21,746 nt of DNA from positions 1-21,746 of IMG/VR virus record IMGVR_UViG_3300025585_000187; one strand, written 5' to 3'. The position numbers and the translations under genes were made by a program. The notes beneath the pieces were generated by a model. That model did not search any database. It was not told the DNA's origin and saw only the letters and a list, made by a program, of their open reading frames with translations. Below are positions 5,384 to 21,230 of the stretch, piece by piece. Each line of letters starts with the position of its first letter. Within the stretch, counting starts at the first letter, position 1. Source of the stretch: a virus.

Positions 5384-5697
5384 TAGGTCGCCTCCTGGCA
5401 CAGCAGCTCGTGCTCAGTGCGGTTGCCGTGCTCGAGCAGGCTGACGATCTCCAGTGTGCGGCCACGCCACTGAAGTCGCATCTGCTGGGTGAGCCCGCTG
5501 AGATACCGCATCCGCACCCGATGGCTGGCCTCGGTCTGCTGCTGGCCCTGCAAAAAGAACTCACGGGACGAGATGCCTTCGACGCTGGCCCAACGGGTGG
5601 CGAACGTGCTCCACGTCTGCACGGCTTCGCCCAGGCTATTCCGGTTGTCGGACGCCTGCTGAACGGTTACACGCTCACGGAGCTTGCCGATGTCCAT
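5383..5697 (-). CDS. Head closure/head-tail joining protein (SPP1 gp16-like)
   Basis: The 104-residue product is a small beta-barrel protein of the head-tail joining family (PF05521 type). It begins MDIGKLRERVTVQQ, has TWSTFATRWASVEG, and continues with the conserved R(M/V)RYLSG and W.GR.LEIVSLLE strands. It plugs or closes the connector after DNA packaging and gives a docking surface for the tail. Its ATG overlaps the previous stop by one base (TGATG), and its stop overlaps the gp10-like GTG. Length and motifs are typical; there is nothing odd. Confidence 0.88.
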   Translation of the reverse strand: MDIGKLRERVTVQQASDNRNSLGEAVQTWSTFATRWASVEGISSREFFLQGQQQTEASHRVRMRYLSGLTQQMRLQWRGRTLEIVSLLEHGNRTEHELLCQEAT

Positions 5698-6098
5698 CAG
5701 TCGTCTGCCCAGATGATGACGGTGTAGGTGCCAGTGGTGTCGTGTGCCATCAGCTGGAGCACAGGCTGCGTACCGTCAAGGTTCGTCACGGCGGCCTCTC
5801 CGCTCTTCGACATCAGCCGAAAGTCCGTTGTGCCGGATTCGTTCAGCTTTCGTGGCGTCGAGCCTGACCATGAGTAGGCCAGCTTCCGAGTATTCACCAG
5901 CGACACGACAGCCCCGGAGGCGTCACGGTAGTTCGTGAAAGTCAGCGTCGTGGCGGCGGTGCCAGCCGTCCCGGTGATCCGCACCACCTGTCCGCTGGTG
6001 TATCCATTGGACGATTCCAACGACAGCACCTTCAGCCGGGCGGTGCCAGACTTGTCGTGGAAAAGAGCGTCAACAGTGATGCGGCCGTCGATGCTCAT
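5697..6098 (-). CDS. Neck-region structural protein, downstream member of a tandem paralogue pair
   Basis: This 133-residue protein begins MSIDGRITVDALFHDKSGT, nearly the same as the next gene upstream (MSVEGRISVDVLFHDKDGT). The two remain similar in layout through a short G-Y-x-S-G motif, a YR(D/N)ASG(A/E) motif and a terminal strand that reads YTVIIW here and YTVLIY in the paralogue. It is beta-rich and has no Cys. The ATG overlaps the paralogue's stop by 4 bases. I do not recognise a named family. The place between connector and head closure protein suggests a virion component such as a fibre, a decoration or a carrier of a surface domain, but this is inference. Confidence 0.65.
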   Translation of the reverse strand: MSIDGRITVDALFHDKSGTARLKVLSLESSNGYTSGQVVRITGTAGTAATTLTFTNYRDASGAVVSLVNTRKLAYSWSGSTPRKLNESGTTDFRLMSKSGEAAVTNLDGTQPVLQLMAHDTTGTYTVIIWADD

Positions 6099-6487
6099 TG
6101 GTTGTAGATCAGCACCGTGTAGTTAGACGTGCCGGCCTGTCCAGACACGTAGAGATATTCCTGCTCGTCGATCTCCGTCATATTGACTTGGTCAACGCTT
6201 GAGCGGATGCGTACGTCACCATTTGCCTGCCACAACTGCGCCCCGTTTCCGCTGGCCTTCAGTGCCACACGAAACGCAGACAGCCCAATTAGTTCACCGG
6301 ACGCATTGCGGTATCCTGTCTGGCCCAGATCAATCGCCGTTGGAGTCTCGCTGCACGTTCCAGATACCATGGCAACGAAGCCGCTGTCGTATCCAATGCT
6401 TGAGCCGAGCGTCAGCACATTGACGGCGTTGGTGCCGTCCTTGTCGTGGAACAGCACGTCCACGCTGATGCGGCCTTCCACGCTCAT
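6095..6487 (-). CDS. Neck-region structural protein, upstream member of a tandem paralogue pair
   Basis: The ATG at 6487 forms an ATGA overlap with the connector stop, which decides the start over an in-frame codon at 6502. The product is 130 residues. Its first 20 residues match those of the gene at 5697-6098 closely, and the later GYRNASGELIGL and C-terminal YTVLIY segments also align, so the pair arose by duplication. The middle has diverged strongly. It is beta-rich with one Cys and no signal peptide or membrane helix. Function is unknown; a virion-associated role is inferred from its place. Confidence 0.65.
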   Translation of the reverse strand: MSVEGRISVDVLFHDKDGTNAVNVLTLGSSIGYDSGFVAMVSGTCSETPTAIDLGQTGYRNASGELIGLSAFRVALKASGNGAQLWQANGDVRIRSSVDQVNMTEIDEQEYLYVSGQAGTSNYTVLIYNQ

Positions 6488-10282: not shown

Positions 10283-11579
10283 TCGTTGGCACCTCCTGGG
10301 CGGTGGTTGTGTCTTCTGTGTCGTCGGCCTGCGTGCCGTCCATCGGCTCGGCCGGCGACGTGTCTTGCTGCGGCTGCTGGGCTGGTGCGTCCTGGCCCAC
10401 CTTGTCCAGCGTGGTCATGTTCAACTGCACGAAGTGCTTGTCACCTTCCGGCCCGATCGGGTTGAGGTTCTCAAGCTCTCGGATCTCGTTAATCGTCATC
10501 CAGCCGTTCTGCAGGGCCGAGACGTAGTAGGCCGACCGGCTGGCGTGGTCGCCACGCAGCAGGCCACTCACGCTGTGCTCGGCAAAATACCGCTCATCAT
10601 CCACGATGAGGTCACGGCTGATCGCAGCCTCCCACCGCTTCAGATGCGGCAGGAGGCAGTGCTGCACAAATTCTGTCGATTGAACTTCGATATTGCTGTA
10701 GGTGCTTCTGTCAAGCTGCTGAATCAGATGAGGCGGCACATGAAAGATCCGGCAGCACTCGTACACGGCGAACGATCGGCTCTCCAGCATCTGGGCAGCC
10801 TCGTTGCTGCTGCTGAGCTCTTTTGCAGAGACGCCAGCAGGCAGAACGCACGTCCTAAAAGCACGGTCACTGCCTCGGTGCATTCGCTCCCAGCCCTCAC
10901 GCATACGCTCGGCAGCTTCTGCGGGGATCGGGTTGCTGCTTTCAAGAATCACCCCAGGACGCGCCCCGTTGCCAAAGTACGTTGCGGCATGCGTCTCAAG
11001 AGCTTGTGAAAGGCCAAGCACGTTCTGAAAAAGTTTGTACGTCGGAATCGCTTTGATGCCGTCCTCAGTCGTGAACCGAAGGGCGAATATTTGCTCTTGG
11101 CTATACAGCGTCTTCCGGCCACTCGGCTCACGGTAGATGTACCGCAGCGTGCCGTTCTCAAGCCGCTCTACTTCCATGCGGCTTGAATGCAGCGGCCACA
11201 GTTCCGAGACGGCACCTCGAGCACCTGGCCGAATCTCGGCGTAGCTCGCACCGTAGTGCAGGTACATGCCGGTCATCCAATCCCGAAACTCTTGAGCCGT
11301 CTGCCACGGGTTTGGCTGCTGGTGCAGGAGCCGATACACCGGGTGGCTCGTGGACTTCTGCTTGCCGCCGTTAGCCATCCGCTCGTAGACGTGCAACGGA
11401 AGTGCCGAGACTGCGTCCGAAATCACCCGGATACAGGCCGTGTAGGCCGAGCAGGCCATTGAGTTGTCGGCGTTGACCCGAATGCCAGACGGCGTCCTGT
11501 TGCCGCTCTCGGTCCAGTCGATGCCACGGAGATCGAACATCTTGAAATCCGGAACTGAGAGTTCTGTGGCGTCGCTCAT
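10272..11579 (-). CDS. Portal protein (HK97 gp3 family)
   Basis: The 435-residue product has the HK97 portal signature. The N-terminal block SMACSAYTACIRVISDAVSALPLHVY is followed by HPVYRLLHQQPNPWQTAQEF. Then come MTGMYLHYGASYAEI and ELWPLHSSRMEVE. The sequence near 270 (YECCRIFHVPPHLIQQLDRS) and the later SGLLRGDHASRSAYYVSALQ are the stem and wing regions usual in the family. The last 60 residues are Gln/Asp/Thr-rich and disordered. Twelve copies would form the DNA entry ring. The start ATG overlaps the terminase stop (ATGA). No abnormality is seen. Confidence 0.96.
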   Translation of the reverse strand: MSDATELSVPDFKMFDLRGIDWTESGNRTPSGIRVNADNSMACSAYTACIRVISDAVSALPLHVYERMANGGKQKSTSHPVYRLLHQQPNPWQTAQEFRDWMTGMYLHYGASYAEIRPGARGAVSELWPLHSSRMEVERLENGTLRYIYREPSGRKTLYSQEQIFALRFTTEDGIKAIPTYKLFQNVLGLSQALETHAATYFGNGARPGVILESSNPIPAEAAERMREGWERMHRGSDRAFRTCVLPAGVSAKELSSSNEAAQMLESRSFAVYECCRIFHVPPHLIQQLDRSTYSNIEVQSTEFVQHCLLPHLKRWEAAISRDLIVDDERYFAEHSVSGLLRGDHASRSAYYVSALQNGWMTINEIRELENLNPIGPEGDKHFVQLNMTTLDKVGQDAPAQQPQQDTSPAEPMDGTQADDTEDTTTAQEVPTNGT

Positions 11580-13135: not shown

Positions 13136-13544
13136 CAGCTGAGACTCTCGCCAAGGCAGACGCCGTCAGGCCAAACTGCTCTGCGAAACGCAGCATGTGC
13201 AGCCGGGCGTCTTTCTTCCGATACCAGGCCGGGTGATTCATCACCCTGCCCTTGTCGTCCATGAACGTCGCACCGTGCTGCTTCAGTTCCGTCTCGGCCT
13301 TTACCATGTCCGCCAAGGCGTCGCAGTAGGCGGCCAGCGTGTGCTGATGCCGCAAACTCATTACCTTGGACGCCTCAAGCATCGGCACGATCCGCTCCCA
13401 CTCGGCTTTTCCAATGTCGCACAGGTAGGAAGGCGGCTCAGGAATGCCAGCGGGCGCGTCGATGCCGCTCTTATGCGGGCCTCTAACGCGAGCCCCTCGC
13501 AGCTTCAGGATCGGTTTAGGTGTTGGCTTTCGGCCCTTACCCAT
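13086..13544 (-). CDS. terS: Terminase small subunit (P27 family)
   Basis: The 152-residue protein has the P27-type N-terminus MGKGRKPTPKPILKLRGARV, then PEPPSYLCDIGKAEWERIVPML. QHTLAAYCDALADMVKAETEL and HPAWYRKKDARLHMLRFAEQFGLTASALARV follow. These are the helices of this family, including the WYRKK..A block near the oligomerisation region. It recognises the packaging site and regulates the large subunit. The ATG overlaps the ligase stop by one base (TGATG); a GTG three bases upstream (13547) is an alternative start. It is directly before the large subunit, as expected. Confidence 0.93.
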   Translation of the reverse strand: MGKGRKPTPKPILKLRGARVRGPHKSGIDAPAGIPEPPSYLCDIGKAEWERIVPMLEASKVMSLRHQHTLAAYCDALADMVKAETELKQHGATFMDDKGRVMNHPAWYRKKDARLHMLRFAEQFGLTASALARVSAVEQATSSDNEDRLMFG

Positions 13545-14293
13545 CACGCTATCCGCAAGAAGGCTGGAAACCGTGGCACGCCGGCATCGGTCAACTGCTG
13601 AAACTTAAAGGTAAACACGGTGCCAACTCGTGGCGGCTTGCGTCGCAGCGAGTCCGTCAGCCCTGACGATACACGAAACACCGTGCCATCTTGCATCCGT
13701 GCCACCAGGGCACCGACGCCAGAACTGTTGCGGCCAGTGCCGGGCTCGTGGCCGATGACCGTGGCCTCGGCGTCCTCAAACGTCTTCACCTTGAGAAGCG
13801 ATGCAGACCGCTTCGGCTCGTACGCACTGCCCGGCTCACGCAGCATCACGCCCTCGCCGCCGCCGCACACGATGTCTGACAGCATGGCCGTTAGATCATC
13901 ACGGCTGCCGCACCGTCGCTGCTCGAGCACGAACGCCGGGCCGGTGCTGCCGGCGAGCACTTCACGGAGCAGCTGCTGCCGCTCCTCAAATCCACCGGAT
14001 GCTTCCGGTGCGTCAAAGACGGCGTAGCGAATCGGACGCCACGCCGCCTGGTCGATGCGTCGATATGCACCGCTCACTTGCTGGAACGTGCCACGGCCAG
14101 CCCACAACTCGCCGTCCAGGCTCACGCCAACGGGCAGCGATGCCACGAACGACTCAGGGGCGTGAATCTCGTTGCCCGTGCGAGTCATGAGCCGGTAGCC
14201 GTCCCACACCGCACGAACGCCGTCAAGTTTCTCTGACATCCACCAGCCGCTTGGATCTGAACCGCTCCACGTCTTCGCAAGCATCACGGCCAT
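13544..14293 (-). CDS. ATP-dependent DNA ligase (small, two-domain)
   Basis: The ATG at 14293 has AGGAGGT 7 bases upstream, so I reject the longer N-terminus. The 249-residue enzyme has the adenylated Lys22 in SEKLDGVRA (motif I), SLDGELW with E62, and RYAVFDA (89-95, motif III). GGEGVMLRE (motif IV) and SLLKVKTF (motif V) complete the nucleotidyltransferase site. Residues 171-249 form the OB domain (VGTVFTFKFQ). It lacks an N-terminal DNA-binding domain and looks like the minimal LigE-type enzymes. It seals nicks during phage replication, recombination or repair. It is the first gene of the block that continues into the terminase genes, which is an unusual place for a ligase. No signal peptide is seen. 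Confidence 0.93.
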   Translation of the reverse strand: MAVMLAKTWSGSDPSGWWMSEKLDGVRAVWDGYRLMTRTGNEIHAPESFVASLPVGVSLDGELWAGRGTFQQVSGAYRRIDQAAWRPIRYAVFDAPEASGGFEERQQLLREVLAGSTGPAFVLEQRRCGSRDDLTAMLSDIVCGGGEGVMLREPGSAYEPKRSASLLKVKTFEDAEATVIGHEPGTGRNSSGVGALVARMQDGTVFRVSSGLTDSLRRKPPRVGTVFTFKFQQLTDAGVPRFPAFLRIA

Positions 14294-16320: not shown

Positions 16321-16563
16321 TCAGTTCTCCTGGCTTTCGCCGGCTCGAGGCTGGAGGGCGTAGAGCAGTCGCGTCTGCTCGCTCACGGCCTTGCTGATCT
16401 CACGCTGCGTCTCGCTCAGGCTCTTCACGAACGTGCGATGCTCCTCCACCAAGGGAAGCAGCACGTCTTGCCGAAGCACCCAGCCGCAGGCAATCGCTAC
16501 CAAAGTGGGAAATCCCCACCGCTCAATGATGCCATACATGGTTTCCTTCGCAGCGTCAGTCAT
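16321..16563 (-). CDS. Small membrane protein, holin-like candidate
   Basis: The ATG at 16563 overlaps the upstream stop by 8 bases and gives 80 residues. One hydrophobic segment (about residues 18-30, FPTLVAIACGWVL) is followed by a charged helix predicted as coiled coil (HRTFVKSLSETQREISKAV). The layout recalls BhlA/UviB-type small holins, with an N-terminal helix and a charged C-terminal helix. It would insert in the host inner membrane. A holin role is not shown by any specific motif. The next two genes upstream also encode small envelope proteins, which supports a lysis or envelope cassette. Confidence 0.6.
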   Translation of the reverse strand: MTDAAKETMYGIIERWGFPTLVAIACGWVLRQDVLLPLVEEHRTFVKSLSETQREISKAVSEQTRLLYALQPRAGESQEN

Positions 16564-16900
16564 TGCGGGCCTCTTTGGCAATTAGCCGCATCTGGCTGCG
16601 GTTCTCGCTCTTCTCCATCCACCACCGTACAAGAATCTTTACAATCTCTTGCACCAAGGCCGAGAAGATCAGCAGAGTGAAGAAGCCCATCTGCATGTCG
16701 GCACGCACGGCACGCTCGACGGTGCGGGTGTAGTACTTCGCCACCACAGCGGCTTCGGCATCGTCGCACTGCTCAAGCACAGGGATTGGCCAGCCAGAAA
16801 CGGCACGCCGCACGACACGGTCCACAATGCGTCGGCCAGCAATACGCTGAAGCGTAGGCAGGCGATCCCAGACGTGCGTCTCCAAGTCGGTGAGCGTCAT
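16556..16900 (-). CDS. Single-pass membrane protein of unknown function
   Basis: The start at ATG 16900 is fixed by the ATGA overlap with the lipoprotein stop and leaves 114 residues. The N-terminal 65 residues are soluble and basic (RRIVDRVVRRAVSG). A hydrophobic helix at about 71-91 (MGFFTLLIFSALVQEIVKIL) is followed by a charged C-terminus. A two-domain arrangement with a long N-terminal part is not typical for a holin but could fit an antiholin or a holin partner. I recognise no family. Confidence 0.6.
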   Translation of the reverse strand: MTLTDLETHVWDRLPTLQRIAGRRIVDRVVRRAVSGWPIPVLEQCDDAEAAVVAKYYTRTVERAVRADMQMGFFTLLIFSALVQEIVKILVRWWMEKSENRSQMRLIAKEARND

Positions 16901-17136
16901 TTCTTGCCAGTTCCTTTGCACGCAGGGCATTCAAGCACAATGCGGCCATCCCCGATCTTGCCGGTGCCGTCGCAGTTGTCGCACTTATCGCTGGCCGGCG
17001 TAGGGGCAATCTCCTGCCGCAGCTGCGTCACCATGCGGGCCGTCTCGCAGGCCATGTCGGCGGATACGCCGTGGTCATCTGGCAACGTGGCCACGCATCC
17101 GATCACGGCGATGAGCAGGCAGAGCAAATACCTCAC
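16897..17136 (-). CDS. Small putative lipoprotein with a CxxCxGxG zinc knuckle
   Basis: A GTG start overlaps the peptidase stop by 4 bases (GTGA). The 79-residue product starts MRYLLCLLIAVIGCVA, which fits a lipoprotein signal with the lipobox VIGC and Cys14 as the lipidated residue. Near the C-terminus two CxxC pairs (C52/C55 and C70/C73) carry the pattern CxxCxGTGK, the zinc knuckle also seen in DnaJ. It lacks the J domain and other DnaJ parts. The mature protein is likely held at the inner or outer membrane. Its place beside a cysteine peptidase and membrane proteins points to envelope or lysis work. Spanin-like function is only a guess. Confidence 0.7.
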   Translation of the reverse strand: MRYLLCLLIAVIGCVATLPDDHGVSADMACETARMVTQLRQEIAPTPASDKCDNCDGTGKIGDGRIVLECPACKGTGKK

Positions 17137-18047
17137 AGCACACCTCTGAGCCAGTTATCGGGCAGCGTCCTCGGCTTGAATCCGCTGTACCCGGCGAGGG
17201 CGAACGAGTCTTCACCAGGGCCAATCATGCGAGTGAAGTCCTTGGCCTTTACCCAACCGGCAGACCTCTGAAACTGGGCCGGAAGGTTCTTGTCGAATGT
17301 TCCCGTGTAGCAGTCGCCCCACGAGTTGACGACGAGAATCGCAGGCTCTGGATTCCATCGGACGCCTGCTGCCATTTGGCAATGAGCCCACCCGCCCATC
17401 GGCGTCATGTAGCCATCACGCAGCGTCATTGAAAAGCCCATGCCGCTACACAGGGCGACCGGGTAGCCGTTCTGGAGGCTCTTGGCCGTGTCCTCAAACG
17501 ACGTGACGAGTGCCACGCTTTGCACCTTGTGCTCAGCGGCGAACTTCTCCAGCGAGTCTGGCACGCCGTCACGGCCCCACTCACGTTCCCTGGTGCCGCT
17601 GTTGTCCGTGAACTGCTGGCCGTTGTAGGTCACGCCGTAGTGCAGCGTCCCGTACTTCGTGACGGCCTTGGCAGCAGCACCGCCATAGGAACCGTCGCCG
17701 CCGTAGTTCTTCTGCCCACGCACCTCAACTCGGCTGAACCCGTAGACGCTTGCCTCGAGCACCCGCCCGCCATACGTCTCGGCTTCGTTTCGCAGCAGGA
17801 TGTCGCAGGCGGCCAGGATGTCGCAGGAAAGCGCCCAGCCCCATCCAACGCAGGAGCCGATCTTCTGGCTGCCACGCTTCCAATCAGGAGCGACGGACAG
17901 CAACGCCGAACCCAGGAACACGTCCCGGCTTTCGTCTAGTGCGAGATCCGGCCCAGCCTGTGCCAGCGTCGGCTTGGCGAGCGTGGCAAGGAACGCCTCG
18001 GTGCCCTTGCGGTCTGGCTGGTAGCCAAAGAGTGGAACGAAGTCCAT
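17133..18047 (-). CDS. Papain-like (C1 family) cysteine peptidase
   Basis: The 304-residue product shows the papain catalytic quartet in order: Gln61 and Cys66 in GSQKIGSCVGWGWALSCD, His222 in GGWAHCQMAAGV, and Asn241 in ILVVNSWGD, the classic NSWG block. Gln at the oxyanion position precedes Cys by five residues instead of the usual six. Residues 1-55 could be a short propeptide. There is no signal peptide or membrane segment. The family cleaves peptide bonds; the substrate here is unknown. It is next to a lipoprotein gene and three membrane-protein genes, and no amidase, lysozyme or other murein hydrolase is visible in the window. It could serve host proteolysis, virion maturation or lysis. 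Peptidase fold is well supported, role is not. Confidence 0.85.
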   Translation of the reverse strand: MDFVPLFGYQPDRKGTEAFLATLAKPTLAQAGPDLALDESRDVFLGSALLSVAPDWKRGSQKIGSCVGWGWALSCDILAACDILLRNEAETYGGRVLEASVYGFSRVEVRGQKNYGGDGSYGGAAAKAVTKYGTLHYGVTYNGQQFTDNSGTREREWGRDGVPDSLEKFAAEHKVQSVALVTSFEDTAKSLQNGYPVALCSGMGFSMTLRDGYMTPMGGWAHCQMAAGVRWNPEPAILVVNSWGDCYTGTFDKNLPAQFQRSAGWVKAKDFTRMIGPGEDSFALAGYSGFKPRTLPDNWLRGVL

Positions 18048-18050
18048 GCG

Positions 18051-18659
18051 TCAGCCCCCGTTGACGCCGGCCCACGCTACGGCCTTCGCAAATGCGGTGT
18101 AACGGCTTCGCACGTCCGCAGTGACCGGAACCACATCAGTGCCAACGGCATGCCCATATGAGGCCTCTACGGCCTTCCTGAGCGGCTCATTGCTGCCGGG
18201 CTGGTGCTGGCCAATCCGACGCCAGGCGATGTCGAGAGCCAGCGTGGTGAACATCCGCAGCGAGCGGGTATCGGTGAACACAACTTCCGTAGTGACGGCA
18301 TCGCCGGCCACAACCACGGCAGCCTTGGTCCACGTCTGAGCCCATAGCATCCGGTCGCCCATAGGCAACGCCTTGAGAGCCTCGGCCACCGGCTTCACCA
18401 GCTGCTGCATCTCCACGCTCGGAGTCTCCACGTCCACAGTGACGGCGGGAGCCGCCGGAAGCCTTGGCATCGGCACCTTGCCCCAGGCCGCAGCGATCAG
18501 GAGGAGTGCGGCGGCGATTCGGCCGAGGGTGGAACGCTCGGCGTAACAGGCTTCGGCGGCCGTAGAAAGCCAGACAGCGATCCGGTCCCGATACGGGGCG
18601 GCCAGCAGAGCAACCGCCGCCACCACGGCAGCGAGGCGTATGACGGACTCATCGTTCAC
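18051..18659 (-). CDS. Two-helix membrane protein of unknown function
   Basis: I start at GTG 18659, which gives a GTGA overlap with the preceding gene and GGAGG 4 bases upstream. The product has 202 residues. Two hydrophobic segments lie at about 6-21 (VIRLAAVVAAVALLAA) and 45-59 (LGRIAAALLLIAAAW). The remaining 140 residues are soluble. They include a Pro-rich linker, TKAAVVVAGDAVTTEVVF and a C-terminal helix-rich part. I recognise no family. It precedes the papain-like peptidase by 3 bases and may be part of the same envelope or lysis unit; an inner membrane location is likely. Confidence 0.6.
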   Translation of the reverse strand: MNDESVIRLAAVVAAVALLAAPYRDRIAVWLSTAAEACYAERSTLGRIAAALLLIAAAWGKVPMPRLPAAPAVTVDVETPSVEMQQLVKPVAEALKALPMGDRMLWAQTWTKAAVVVAGDAVTTEVVFTDTRSLRMFTTLALDIAWRRIGQHQPGSNEPLRKAVEASYGHAVGTDVVPVTADVRSRYTAFAKAVAWAGVNGG

Positions 18660-18958
18660 CTGGCGGCCTCCACCTGCAGCAGGCACCACCGCACAAGGGC
18701 TTCGCCTTCCTTGGTCTTCAGCAGATCGCCGAGAAGCCGCACCAGTTGGTCATCCACCTTGGCGTCGGTCTTGCTGGCCACCCATTCGGCGGCCTCGCTG
18801 ACGATGACGGCCTTGGCGTACGGATCGGCCGTCTGGGCGAAACGCTGGGCGAATCCGACGAGCGGTGCCCACGTCTGCAGGAGGCGGATCTGGTCCCAGA
18901 TCGACAAGTTGCCGCCGTACTTCTCGAGCTCGGCAGGCGTGGCTTCGTAGTTTGGCAC
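18656..18958 (-). CDS. Small helical hypothetical protein
   Basis: The GTG start has AGGAGG 7 bases upstream, inside the end of the preceding gene. The 100-residue product is all-helical by pattern. It reads SIWDQIRLLQTWAPLVGF, then AVIVSEAAEWVASKTDAKVD and QLVRLLGDLLKTKEGEALVR. It has no membrane segment, signal peptide or zinc site. I recall similar small proteins in phage contigs but no assigned function. Neighbours on both sides are also unknown. Confidence 0.6.
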   Translation of the reverse strand: MPNYEATPAELEKYGGNLSIWDQIRLLQTWAPLVGFAQRFAQTADPYAKAVIVSEAAEWVASKTDAKVDDQLVRLLGDLLKTKEGEALVRWCLLQVEAAR

Positions 18959-18960
18959 GG

Positions 18961-19233
18961 CTAGTCCTCCTCTTCGGAGTCTGCCTCACCGTCGTCGTCC
19001 TCTTGCAGTGGCGTCACATTGACGATCTCGTTGATCCAATCGTAGGCGGCGTCGTAGGCGTCTTTGGCTTCCTCGAATGCGTCCTTGCGATCCAGCCGAA
19101 ATGGCTGCTTGAACACCTCTTCATCCAGCAGTTTCCCGCTGCCGTCCGTGAGGTATATGTAGGCATACAGCTGCCCGTACTCGATGACGATCCGACGCAG
19201 CACGTCCTCTTTGCCCCGTGGTGACAGCGTCAT
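18961..19233 (-). CDS. Small acidic protein
   Basis: ATG 19233 is chosen because GGGAGG lies 7 bases upstream and an ATGA overlap joins it to the previous gene. The 90-residue product has an N-terminal SPRGKEDVLRRIVIEYGQLY. A Tyr/Asp-rich helix (DAYDAAYDWINEIV) and an acidic tail (EDDDGEADSEEED) follow. The strongly acidic C-terminus could mimic DNA or bind a basic protein. I know no family. The position next to a DNA-binding protein is suggestive only. Confidence 0.6.
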   Translation of the reverse strand: MTLSPRGKEDVLRRIVIEYGQLYAYIYLTDGSGKLLDEEVFKQPFRLDRKDAFEEAKDAYDAAYDWINEIVNVTPLQEDDDGEADSEEED

Positions 19234-19604
19234 CGGTTGGCCTCCCACAAGTCAGCGTCGCCGTCGTAGGCGGTGTGCTCTCTCGTCTCACTGTCGAGCG
19301 GGATTCGTTTGAGCGACACCAGCTGCGTCTTCGTCACTCGGCGATCCTCACGCACGTCATCGCTCCACGTCGCCTGAATCTGAATGCAGGCCTGCTGGAT
19401 CTCGGTAGTTGTCGGATCTCGCTGCCGAACAGGCTTCGCCCGCAGCTTCCGGTCGTGCCGTCGTGGCAACTCCCAGACAACCGCCAGGCGGATGACTTGA
19501 TCACGCGAAATAGTCCACCGCTCGCACAGTGCCCGCATCGGCATGTGCGTGGCCCAGTCGGCTCGGAACGCCGTCAGGCTGATGGTTGCGGTGTTGCCTC
19601 GCAC
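19230..19604 (-). CDS. Helix-turn-helix DNA-binding protein (GcrA-like)
   Basis: The start is uncertain. A GTG at 19604 has AGGAGG 4 bases upstream, which gives 124 residues; a TTG at 19622 and an ATG near 19544 are alternatives. The N-terminal block reads WATHMPMRALCERWTISRDQVIRLAVVWELPRRHDR. That is a helix-turn-helix of the GcrA/Sigma70 region 4-like type: a short W-containing helix, a turn, and a recognition helix ending in L-P-R-R. The middle is basic and the C-terminus charged. It probably binds DNA as a transcription regulator, perhaps of the phage genes downstream. The start overlaps the glycosyltransferase end. Confidence 0.7.
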   Translation of the reverse strand: MRGNTATISLTAFRADWATHMPMRALCERWTISRDQVIRLAVVWELPRRHDRKLRAKPVRQRDPTTTEIQQACIQIQATWSDDVREDRRVTKTQLVSLKRIPLDSETREHTAYDGDADLWEANR

Positions 19605-20467
19605 GACTCCTCCTGCAGCCAACTCATCAGCATCCGTTGCGACGGGTTTAGGTACAGATGCTGTCTCGTGGCCTTGGCAATGCTCTGATGAAACGGCACA
19701 TGCTCGCAGTCTGACACGCCGTCATACGTTCCCTTCAGATACGCATCGGTCCGATAGATGCACATGCCGCCGAACGCTGACGAGACGAGCACGGGCGGCG
19801 AGCCAACAGGCGGCAGCCACGAGAAGCCGAAGCCGCCGTACCCGTTCTGATACGTGTCGAAGTAGCAGTTAGCCTGCCCAACGCCACGCAAAGCCCATAG
19901 GTCGTAGTGGCACCACTGAGGGCCACCGCCGAAGTCGTACTGAAACAGGCTGGCACTGGCCATGCCGTAGGAACCTTGCAACTCCACAAGCCAGCCGAGG
20001 CCGTTCAGAAATCCTTCGTCGTTCCAGCCGCCCCATGCGTCGAAGTCGATGACGCAGACGTAGTCGGCGTCCCTGGCACACGCTCGCACCCACCGCTGGC
20101 ATGCGTCTCGGTACTCGGCCAACGCAGTCGTGCGACGGCCGGCGAACTCAGCCCCGAAGTGCCCACGTCCGAGAATCTGATAGTGAAACGTCGCCTGCGG
20201 ATTGTCACGGCAGTAGTCGTGCAGCACCTCGAGCGTCTGATCTTCGCAGTCGTTCGACTCAATGTGCAGCGACCACGAACCGGCGATCTCTTGGAGTTTC
20301 TGGAGCCGTCCTAGGTTGCTGGCGAGCCGCACCGCACAGTTCCGAGCCAGGCCCACGAAGGCAATCTTGGCGTGCCGCAGACGTTCAGTGCCTTCGGCCA
20401 CACGCTCACGGTAGGCATCAATGAACGGCTCATGCGGCAGCCAGAGCCGTGACGGCATGTCAGGCAT
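19574..20467 (-). CDS. Glycosyltransferase, Anp1/GT62-like, with DxD motif
   Basis: The 297-residue product has KIAFVGLARNCAVRLASNLG at about 34-53 and HIESNDCEDQTLEVL at 68-82. The metal site D141-x-D143 lies in VCVIDFDAWGG. These match the core of Anp1-type (GT62-like) enzymes, which usually form mannosyl bonds in fungi but also occur in phages and bacteria. A central QYDFGGGPQWCHYDLWALRG and the downstream SAFGGMCIYRTDAYLKG are the acceptor-side blocks. The ATG overlaps the previous stop by 8 bases, with GAGG 5 bases upstream. The acceptor is unknown; virion or host glycan and modified DNA are possible. Paired with the next gene upstream, it forms a two-gene sugar-transfer unit. Confidence 0.82.
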   Translation of the reverse strand: MPDMPSRLWLPHEPFIDAYRERVAEGTERLRHAKIAFVGLARNCAVRLASNLGRLQKLQEIAGSWSLHIESNDCEDQTLEVLHDYCRDNPQATFHYQILGRGHFGAEFAGRRTTALAEYRDACQRWVRACARDADYVCVIDFDAWGGWNDEGFLNGLGWLVELQGSYGMASASLFQYDFGGGPQWCHYDLWALRGVGQANCYFDTYQNGYGGFGFSWLPPVGSPPVLVSSAFGGMCIYRTDAYLKGTYDGVSDCEHVPFHQSIAKATRQHLYLNPSQRMLMSWLQEESCEATPQPSA

Positions 20468-21230
20468 CGACGCCTCGCTTTCGGCAGATTGCGGCTGCCA
20501 CGTCCTGCGGCACGCCGGCCCGTTTCAGAAACGCCCAGCACTCAACCATGTACCGGCTGGCGTCGTGGCTGTTACGCACTGTTACGCCGTAGCCGGCATC
20601 GTCCTCAGTGAAGATGGCACCAGCCTGCGGCACATAGACGCATCCGCCCATGGCGGCGACGGCCGAGTAGCCGATGGCGTCGGCCCATGGCCCCATCCGC
20701 CAGTATTCAAGATTGCAAAGCCATAGCAGCCAGCTCCACCGGATGGCCGAGCCGATTCCCGTTTCGCACGGCAGCGCGTCGCTGCAGATGTGCTGCTCGG
20801 CCTCTGACGCCGTCATCCGTTTCACTTCTGGAAACGGCATCGGCACGGCGGCGTGAGGATCTTGGCCAGGCTTTCTGACGTAGTACGAATGGAACACGAC
20901 GGCAGCGTTGGGGTGCCGCATCGTGCTCTGCACCACGCCTGGGCAGAGCTCGTCATCGGCAGAAAGCCCGATGACGTGCGAGCCGCCGAAGAACGTGAAC
21001 TGCTCGGCAGCGGCCTGCTCCCAACAAGCAGCCTTTACGGTGTTGCGATGCAGCCAGACGCCGTCGTACGTCATTACCGCAGCATTGGCCACGTCAACGC
21101 TCTCATCGGTGCTGGCGTCATCAATGACGGCAACCTCCACCGGCATCTGGCTGGCCGCTGAGTAGATCGCCGCCGGCAGCGTGGCAGCGTGGTTGCGGTT
21201 TGGTATGTAGACCGAGACGCCGAACTTCAC
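20460..21230 (-). CDS. Glycosyltransferase family 2 protein
   Basis: The 256-residue product is a GT-A enzyme. The opening FGVSVYIPNRNHAATLPAAI is the family 2 start. AVIDDASTDESVDVA has D37/D38 for the nucleotide, and GLSADDELCPG with D92/D93 takes the place of the DxD motif. A C-terminal Trp-rich region (GSAIRWSWLLWLCN) is probably acceptor-binding. There is no membrane helix, so it acts in the cytoplasm. Start is GTG, overlapping the RusA stop by 4 bases. The transferred sugar and acceptor cannot be read. It sits directly next to the Anp1-like enzyme. Confidence 0.88.
   Translation of the reverse strand: MKFGVSVYIPNRNHAATLPAAIYSAASQMPVEVAVIDDASTDESVDVANAAVMTYDGVWLHRNTVKAACWEQAAAEQFTFFGGSHVIGLSADDELCPGVVQSTMRHPNAAVVFHSYYVRKPGQDPHAAVPMPFPEVKRMTASEAEQHICSDALPCETGIGSAIRWSWLLWLCNLEYWRMGPWADAIGYSAVAAMGGCVYVPQAGAIFTEDDAGYGVTVRNSHDASRYMVECWAFLKRAGVPQDVAAAICRKRGVDA

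Follow-up and report, generated by a model that had tools for sequence, protein, structure and literature searches.

The 21.7-kb stretch of virus DNA analysed here (21,746 nucleotides of IMG/VR record IMGVR_UViG_3300025585_000187, hereafter the window) encodes a divergent papain-type cysteine peptidase, and we consider it fairly probable (about 0.6) that this enzyme is a lysis endopeptidase which acts on the envelope and takes the place of the endolysin. The relatives that were examined closely have no recognisable cell-wall-cutting enzyme, so the protease may be their means of bursting the host. Its catalytic set is intact, and proteolytic activity is predicted.

The peptidase gene and its neighbours

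The window is a tailed-phage fragment of 60.9% G+C with almost all genes on the minus strand. Read from right to left, a RusA-like gene and two glycosyltransferase-like genes are followed by a run of small genes, the peptidase gene among them (19604 to 16321), and then by fibre-like genes, an HNH gene, a ligase-like gene, and the genes for terminase, portal, protease, capsid and tail. The small-gene run comprises the following features.

19230..19604, minus strand: 124-aa protein with no assigned function, of helix-turn-helix-like appearance; conserved first gene of the cassette
18961..19233, minus strand: 90-aa protein with no assigned function; kept in most relatives
18656..18958, minus strand: soluble protein of 100 aa with no assigned function; conserved in the cassette
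18051..18659, minus strand: 202-aa protein; N-terminal hydrophobic helix, a second marginal one, and a conserved soluble part
17133..18047, minus strand: C1 (papain/xylellain-type) cysteine peptidase, 304 aa; Gln61, Cys66, His222, Asn241
16897..17136, minus strand: lipoprotein candidate, 79 aa; VIGC lipobox and C-terminal CxxC...CxxC zinc ribbon of DnaJ type
16556..16900, minus strand: single-pass membrane protein, 114 aa; helix at about 73-91
16321..16563, minus strand: membrane protein, 80 aa; one helix and a charged, coiled-coil-looking tail

A first-pass annotation had read this locus as a C1 peptidase lying among a lipoprotein, two single-pass membrane proteins and a two-helix protein. 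The gene boundaries were confirmed exactly (start codon ATG at 18047 and stop codon at 17133 on the minus strand), Gln61, Cys66, His222 and Asn241 are all present, and the neighbours are as described, the second helix of the upstream 202-aa protein being marginal. The 202-aa gene exists as two genes in some relatives, and the 79-aa lipoprotein candidate is kept in all relatives compared. Since the peptidase gene shares 4 bases with the lipoprotein gene and is separated from the 202-aa gene by a gap of 3 bases, the small-gene run is probably a single late transcript. This tightly packed run shares its strand with the genes for terminase, portal, capsid and tail, which follow shortly downstream.

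The 80-aa membrane protein is, by layout only, a holin candidate. No sequence match to a holin family was obtained for it, including the BhlA holin (PF10960), which was tested specifically; one relative matches phrog_2429 at E 0.0005.

Several other features of these genomes were observed in passing. Two adjacent window genes (5697-6098 and 6095-6487) each show 30-32% identity to one and the same gene of the relatives, a tandem duplication. The gene at 13544-14293, which adjoins the terminase, reads from its sequence as an ATP-dependent DNA ligase and was confined, among the contigs compared, to the window and a contig nearly identical to it. DNA-modification genes occur in two related genomes (a Tet/JBP oxygenase and a TET-associated glycosyltransferase in G002, and Mom in G003), and the glycosyltransferase-like genes of the window (19574-21230) may likewise be part of DNA modification.

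A divergent C1 fold in a viral family

On its own, the window protein matches nothing in Pfam, PHROGs or the PDB sequences. It falls below the curated cut-off of PF00112 (Peptidase_C1) and is therefore classed here as a divergent peptidase of C1 type and not counted by score among the PF00112 members; two distant relatives with 34-35% identity (L076 and L084) do exceed that cut-off (23.5 and 25.2 vs 20.7 bits). The Pfam scan gave the window protein no profile match to CHAP, NlpC/P60 or C39, and two relatives reached C39_2 below threshold (12.9 and 13.1 vs 24 bits). A family profile matches cathsilicatein in the region of the His and Asn motifs (E 0.013). The first profile also hit drimenol synthase (E 1.5), which was attributed to chance, and weak matches to Microbacterium phages were dropped as they ran antisense to a giant gene.

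An AlphaFold2 model built from 47 diverse sequences reached a pLDDT of 84.7 and a pTM of 0.87 (six close sequences gave a pLDDT of 33). Among the 47 aligned relatives Cys66, His222, Asn241 and Trp243 are invariant, and Cys66 opens a helix in the model, as in papain. In papain the Gln stands 6 residues ahead of the Cys; it stands 5 residues before it in the window protein and 5 or 6 in the relatives. Structure comparison bore out the papain-like fold that had been read from the sequence: the top Foldseek match was xylellain (PDB 3OIS; E 2e-9), followed by cathepsin B, and the best 50 of 111 PDB matches at E <= 0.001 were all C1-type enzymes, with moderate TM-scores of 0.5-0.6. The peptidase shares with xylellain and other C1A peptidases this fold and the Gln-Cys-His-Asn order, and one phage branch also carries the motif NQGQVGSCVAFG. 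It differs from them in its low identity (13-14%; TM-scores 0.52-0.59), in the location of its gene in a membrane-protein cassette, and in a WGR(T/D)GVPD motif. Viral fold matches include proteins annotated as peptidoglycan-binding or muramidase, which are suggestive only.

Eight close relatives with 78-100% identity were found in IMG/VR. A match to a plasmid of Planctopirus limnophila, pPLIM01, had an E value of only 0.8 at first and was upheld by a profile (E 6e-8) and by the alignment of the active-site region. When this homologue was added to the query, the search yielded 67 loci and then at least 566 confirmed IMG/VR stretches, a count that is not dereplicated. The conserved WGR(T/D)GVPD motif served to find these members of what is a viral peptidase family without prior annotation. 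In one of them (L074:9995-10902) a stop at 10387 breaks the frame and the match runs on to 10902, owing either to a frameshift or to a fault in the assembly.

In comparisons of the window with four relatives, the dN of the peptidase gene is 0.09-0.19 and its dS 0.8-1.5, with dN/dS at about 0.11-0.16; the gene is under strong purifying selection. A frame kept in relatives of 78-91% identity, this ratio and the good model together indicate that the reading frame is more than a chance one. The peptidase (78-91% identity to the relatives) is better conserved than the terminase (43-65%) or the capsid (35-70%), which would be unusual for an endolysin and weighs against a role in lysis.

Envelope setting of the family

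The surroundings of the peptidase were compared over 29 sequence clusters (55% identity), with genes taken from a simple codon-usage caller, membrane helices from hydropathy and lipoboxes from a pattern, all of them crude predictions. Genes for membrane proteins or lipoproteins made up 74 of the 163 genes within three genes of the peptidase (45%) vs 52 of 464 elsewhere (11%; odds ratio 6.6, p 9e-19). Their rate falls with distance, from 67% in adjacent positions (38/57) through 42% and 25% to about 12%. The 40-kb phages have their genes in a completely different order, yet two genes before the peptidase they encode a homologue of the 80-aa membrane protein of the window. At locus L082, the second gene after the peptidase encodes a small long-tailed membrane protein, and a gene of terminase size follows soon afterwards.

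A Tat signal or membrane anchor of its own was found in 20 of 138 family members: nine have a Tat-like N-terminal signal (eight by pattern, and L120 by eye), and 11, including the pPLIM01 protein, have an N-terminal membrane helix. In a tree from which most of the N-termini were omitted, these members fall into one Tat group and one anchored group; pPLIM01 stands separately, its position being unsure because of its long branch. The exported members are predicted to act outside the cytoplasm. The window peptidase and its branch have no predicted export signal, as is the case in classical holin-dependent endolysins.

These signals bear on two other readings of the enzyme. One is a protease that would work inside the cell, in host takeover or in counter-defence. 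C1-like enzymes that act on host proteins are widespread, and the lack of an export signal in the window protein would fit such a role; the export of relatives via Tat signals or membrane anchors, the constant envelope-protein neighbours and the late gene position all speak against it, and we hold it to be improbable. The other is a protease of the virion, which would process head or tail proteins or act at entry. Its gene does lie close to tail-fibre-like and packaging genes, and the first-pass annotation had named virion maturation among its alternatives. However, the lineage already has a prohead protease of the Peptidase_S78 type, pPLIM01 has a Clp-type one, and Tat or transmembrane signals in relatives are ill-suited to virion assembly in the cytoplasm. 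Virion maturation is thus unlikely for the members that bear such signals, and a virion role has very little probability overall.

A second recurrent neighbour is a thioredoxin-like protein with a WCxxC motif, encoded one or two genes downstream of the peptidase in 17 loci from seven clusters. Such genes account for 17 of 779 genes near the peptidase vs 2 of 2193 farther away. The protein starts with a hydrophobic stretch in 12 of the 17 cases; one matches thioredoxin at E 0.002, and the other 16 were identified by the motif. The window has no thioredoxin-like gene; the corresponding position is taken by the lipoprotein, whose DnaJ-type ribbon contains two CxxC pairs and which one might speculate to be a functional substitute for thioredoxin.

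The first-pass annotation had offered participation of the peptidase in lysis or in attack on a proteinaceous envelope alongside other ideas, and this suggestion stands in part. Action on the envelope is well supported for the family by the conserved membrane-protein and lipoprotein neighbours, the Tat and transmembrane signals, and the thioredoxin-like neighbours, most of which look exported; the purpose of lysis and the substrate are what we infer beyond that.

Other proteins encoded near the peptidase or elsewhere in these genomes were also recorded. Small membrane proteins with an NIEHH motif lie one and two genes from it (L104:7478-8011 and L065:5480-6007), and we take these to resemble lipid desaturases of the TMEM189/CarF type. 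Proteins with GDSG or TAAH motifs lie two to three genes before it in L104 and L108. A trypsin-like protein with an apparent signal peptide is encoded at G003:41792-42571 (L012:1792-2571; Pfam Trypsin, E 4e-12). Small, apparently secreted proteins with a common EG(V/I)G(F/M)...C...GVA pattern occur in several lineages (G009:26876-27127, G002:11356-11655 and G003:41407-41727).

Proposed lysis without a recognised endolysin

The first-pass annotation saw no murein hydrolase in the window, and none emerged here: a six-frame search found no Amidase_2, and neither the 10 flanking proteins nor the structural-gene orthologues contained such an enzyme. It had also proposed to look for an endolysin in the rest of the genome, and complete-looking relatives of 53.9 kb and 40.2 kb allowed this. 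Genome G002, from the lineage of the window and with a peptidase 82% identical, has direct terminal repeats of 127 bases and is therefore expected to be a complete circular assembly; Pfam searches of its predicted proteins gave no recognisable murein hydrolase. The same was true of Pfam scans of G003 (its PHROG scan is represented by the 25 of 109 families listed). In G009, which belongs to another lineage and has 127-base repeats too, the C1 peptidase itself was the only candidate for a wall or protein hydrolase among 23 Pfam families listed in full, and the 21 Pfam families of pPLIM01 included no murein hydrolase. Six-frame searches of 20 contigs of 38-226 kb found no match to Phage_lysozyme or Amidase_2; when four to five further records were included, SLT and CHAP also gave no match and M15_4 gave one sub-threshold match. 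Control genomes produced matches in each of these searches. The survey covered phages that bear the peptidase, and the rate of absence is therefore without a control; moreover, silence of Pfam is not proof that an endolysin is absent, because many proteins of these phages have no assigned function.

We propose that the peptidase would be made in the cytoplasm without an export signal, and that a small, holin-like membrane neighbour would let it through the inner membrane late in infection. There it would cut peptide bonds of the envelope, freeing the progeny where other phages use a lysozyme or an amidase. Lacking an export signal, the window peptidase probably needs its small membrane neighbours to reach its substrate; in other branches a Tat signal or membrane anchor on the enzyme itself would serve this purpose. 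In the phages that have it, the exported thioredoxin-like protein probably keeps the catalytic Cys reduced or opens disulfides of envelope proteins. The activity, the passage through the membrane with the aid of neighbours, the envelope substrate and the role at the end of infection are all parts that we infer. Peptidoglycan peptides and an envelope protein layer appear about equally likely as the substrate. Classical C1 peptidases cut between L-residues and peptidoglycan peptides contain D-residues, which counts against the lysis reading.

The same envelope evidence would also fit a peptidase that shortens or strips away proteins of the host surface or periplasm, for instance to keep out superinfecting phages or to ease the detachment of virions, with lysis left to an unrecognised protein. 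Every genome has many unassigned proteins that could do so, and the peptidase is unusually conserved. On the other side, in several lineages the gene lies in the late run beside packaging genes, and no other candidate lysis enzyme was recognised in G002, G003, G009 or pPLIM01. This alternative seems rather unlikely to us.

Papain-superfamily peptidases have precedents in phage lysis. In the LysA enzymes of mycobacteriophages, the papain family includes the N5 domain, and L5 gp10 is capable of lysis with nothing more than a peptidase at its N-terminus and a presumed binding domain (PMC3314691). CHAP, NlpC/P60 and the pseudomurein endoisopeptidases are enzymes of the same superfamily that cut wall peptides (PMC10318531). 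The principle is thus not new. In LysA, however, the RipA-like N4 and the C39-like N5 are usually joined to other catalytic or wall-binding parts, whereas the window protein is of C1 type with no additional part of either kind recognised; it differs from CHAP and NlpC/P60 in giving no match to their profiles and in having C1 enzymes as its best fold matches. A small membrane protein, a soluble hydrolase and a lipoprotein side by side recall the holin-endolysin-spanin cassette, except that the hydrolase is a C1 peptidase, no holin family is matched, and the lipoprotein combines its lipobox with a zinc ribbon in place of a known spanin sequence. What appears to be new is the proposed use of a stand-alone C1-type enzyme for lysis, joined in some phages by thioredoxin partners; no description of such an enzyme was found in the open-access papers searched.

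The sole plasmid match, pPLIM01 (NC_014149.1, L024) of Planctopirus limnophila DSM 3776, encodes a homologue of about 29% aligned identity (WP_013112484.1). Its gene lies just before HNH and TerL with membrane proteins on its flanks, as in the envelope context of the window; unlike the window protein, it has an N-terminal membrane anchor, and it is annotated only as hypothetical. The plasmid carries TerL, portal, ClpP-type head protease, capsid, tape measure, ParB/partition and integrase genes, and with this mix of phage structural and partition genes it looks like a phage-plasmid. Judging from this one homologue, the host of the window phage is probably a planctomycete. Two scans of 84,980 cellular genomes with exact peptide patterns (peptidase and capsid) found no relatives. 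Family members span 33% to 67% G+C, so other hosts are likely too.

Planctomycetes were long assumed to have a protein wall (PMC3422733); sacculi of P. limnophila contain DAP and are dissolved by lysozyme (PMC4432640), and a pure protein wall is therefore not the whole barrier in this species. One might tentatively, and with some doubt, envisage a separate class of lysis for protein-rich envelopes, in which a papain-type protease, with an exported thioredoxin in some branches, would dismantle a disulfide-containing protein layer instead of or before the peptidoglycan.

No relevant paper on phages of planctomycetes was found in the open-access literature, and the phages of this and other poorly studied phyla are almost unknown. 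If the lysis reading is true, a large C1 peptidase family with envelope partners would fill a gap in how phages without a recognisable endolysin lyse their hosts, and would provide a handle on the disputed cell wall of planctomycetes.
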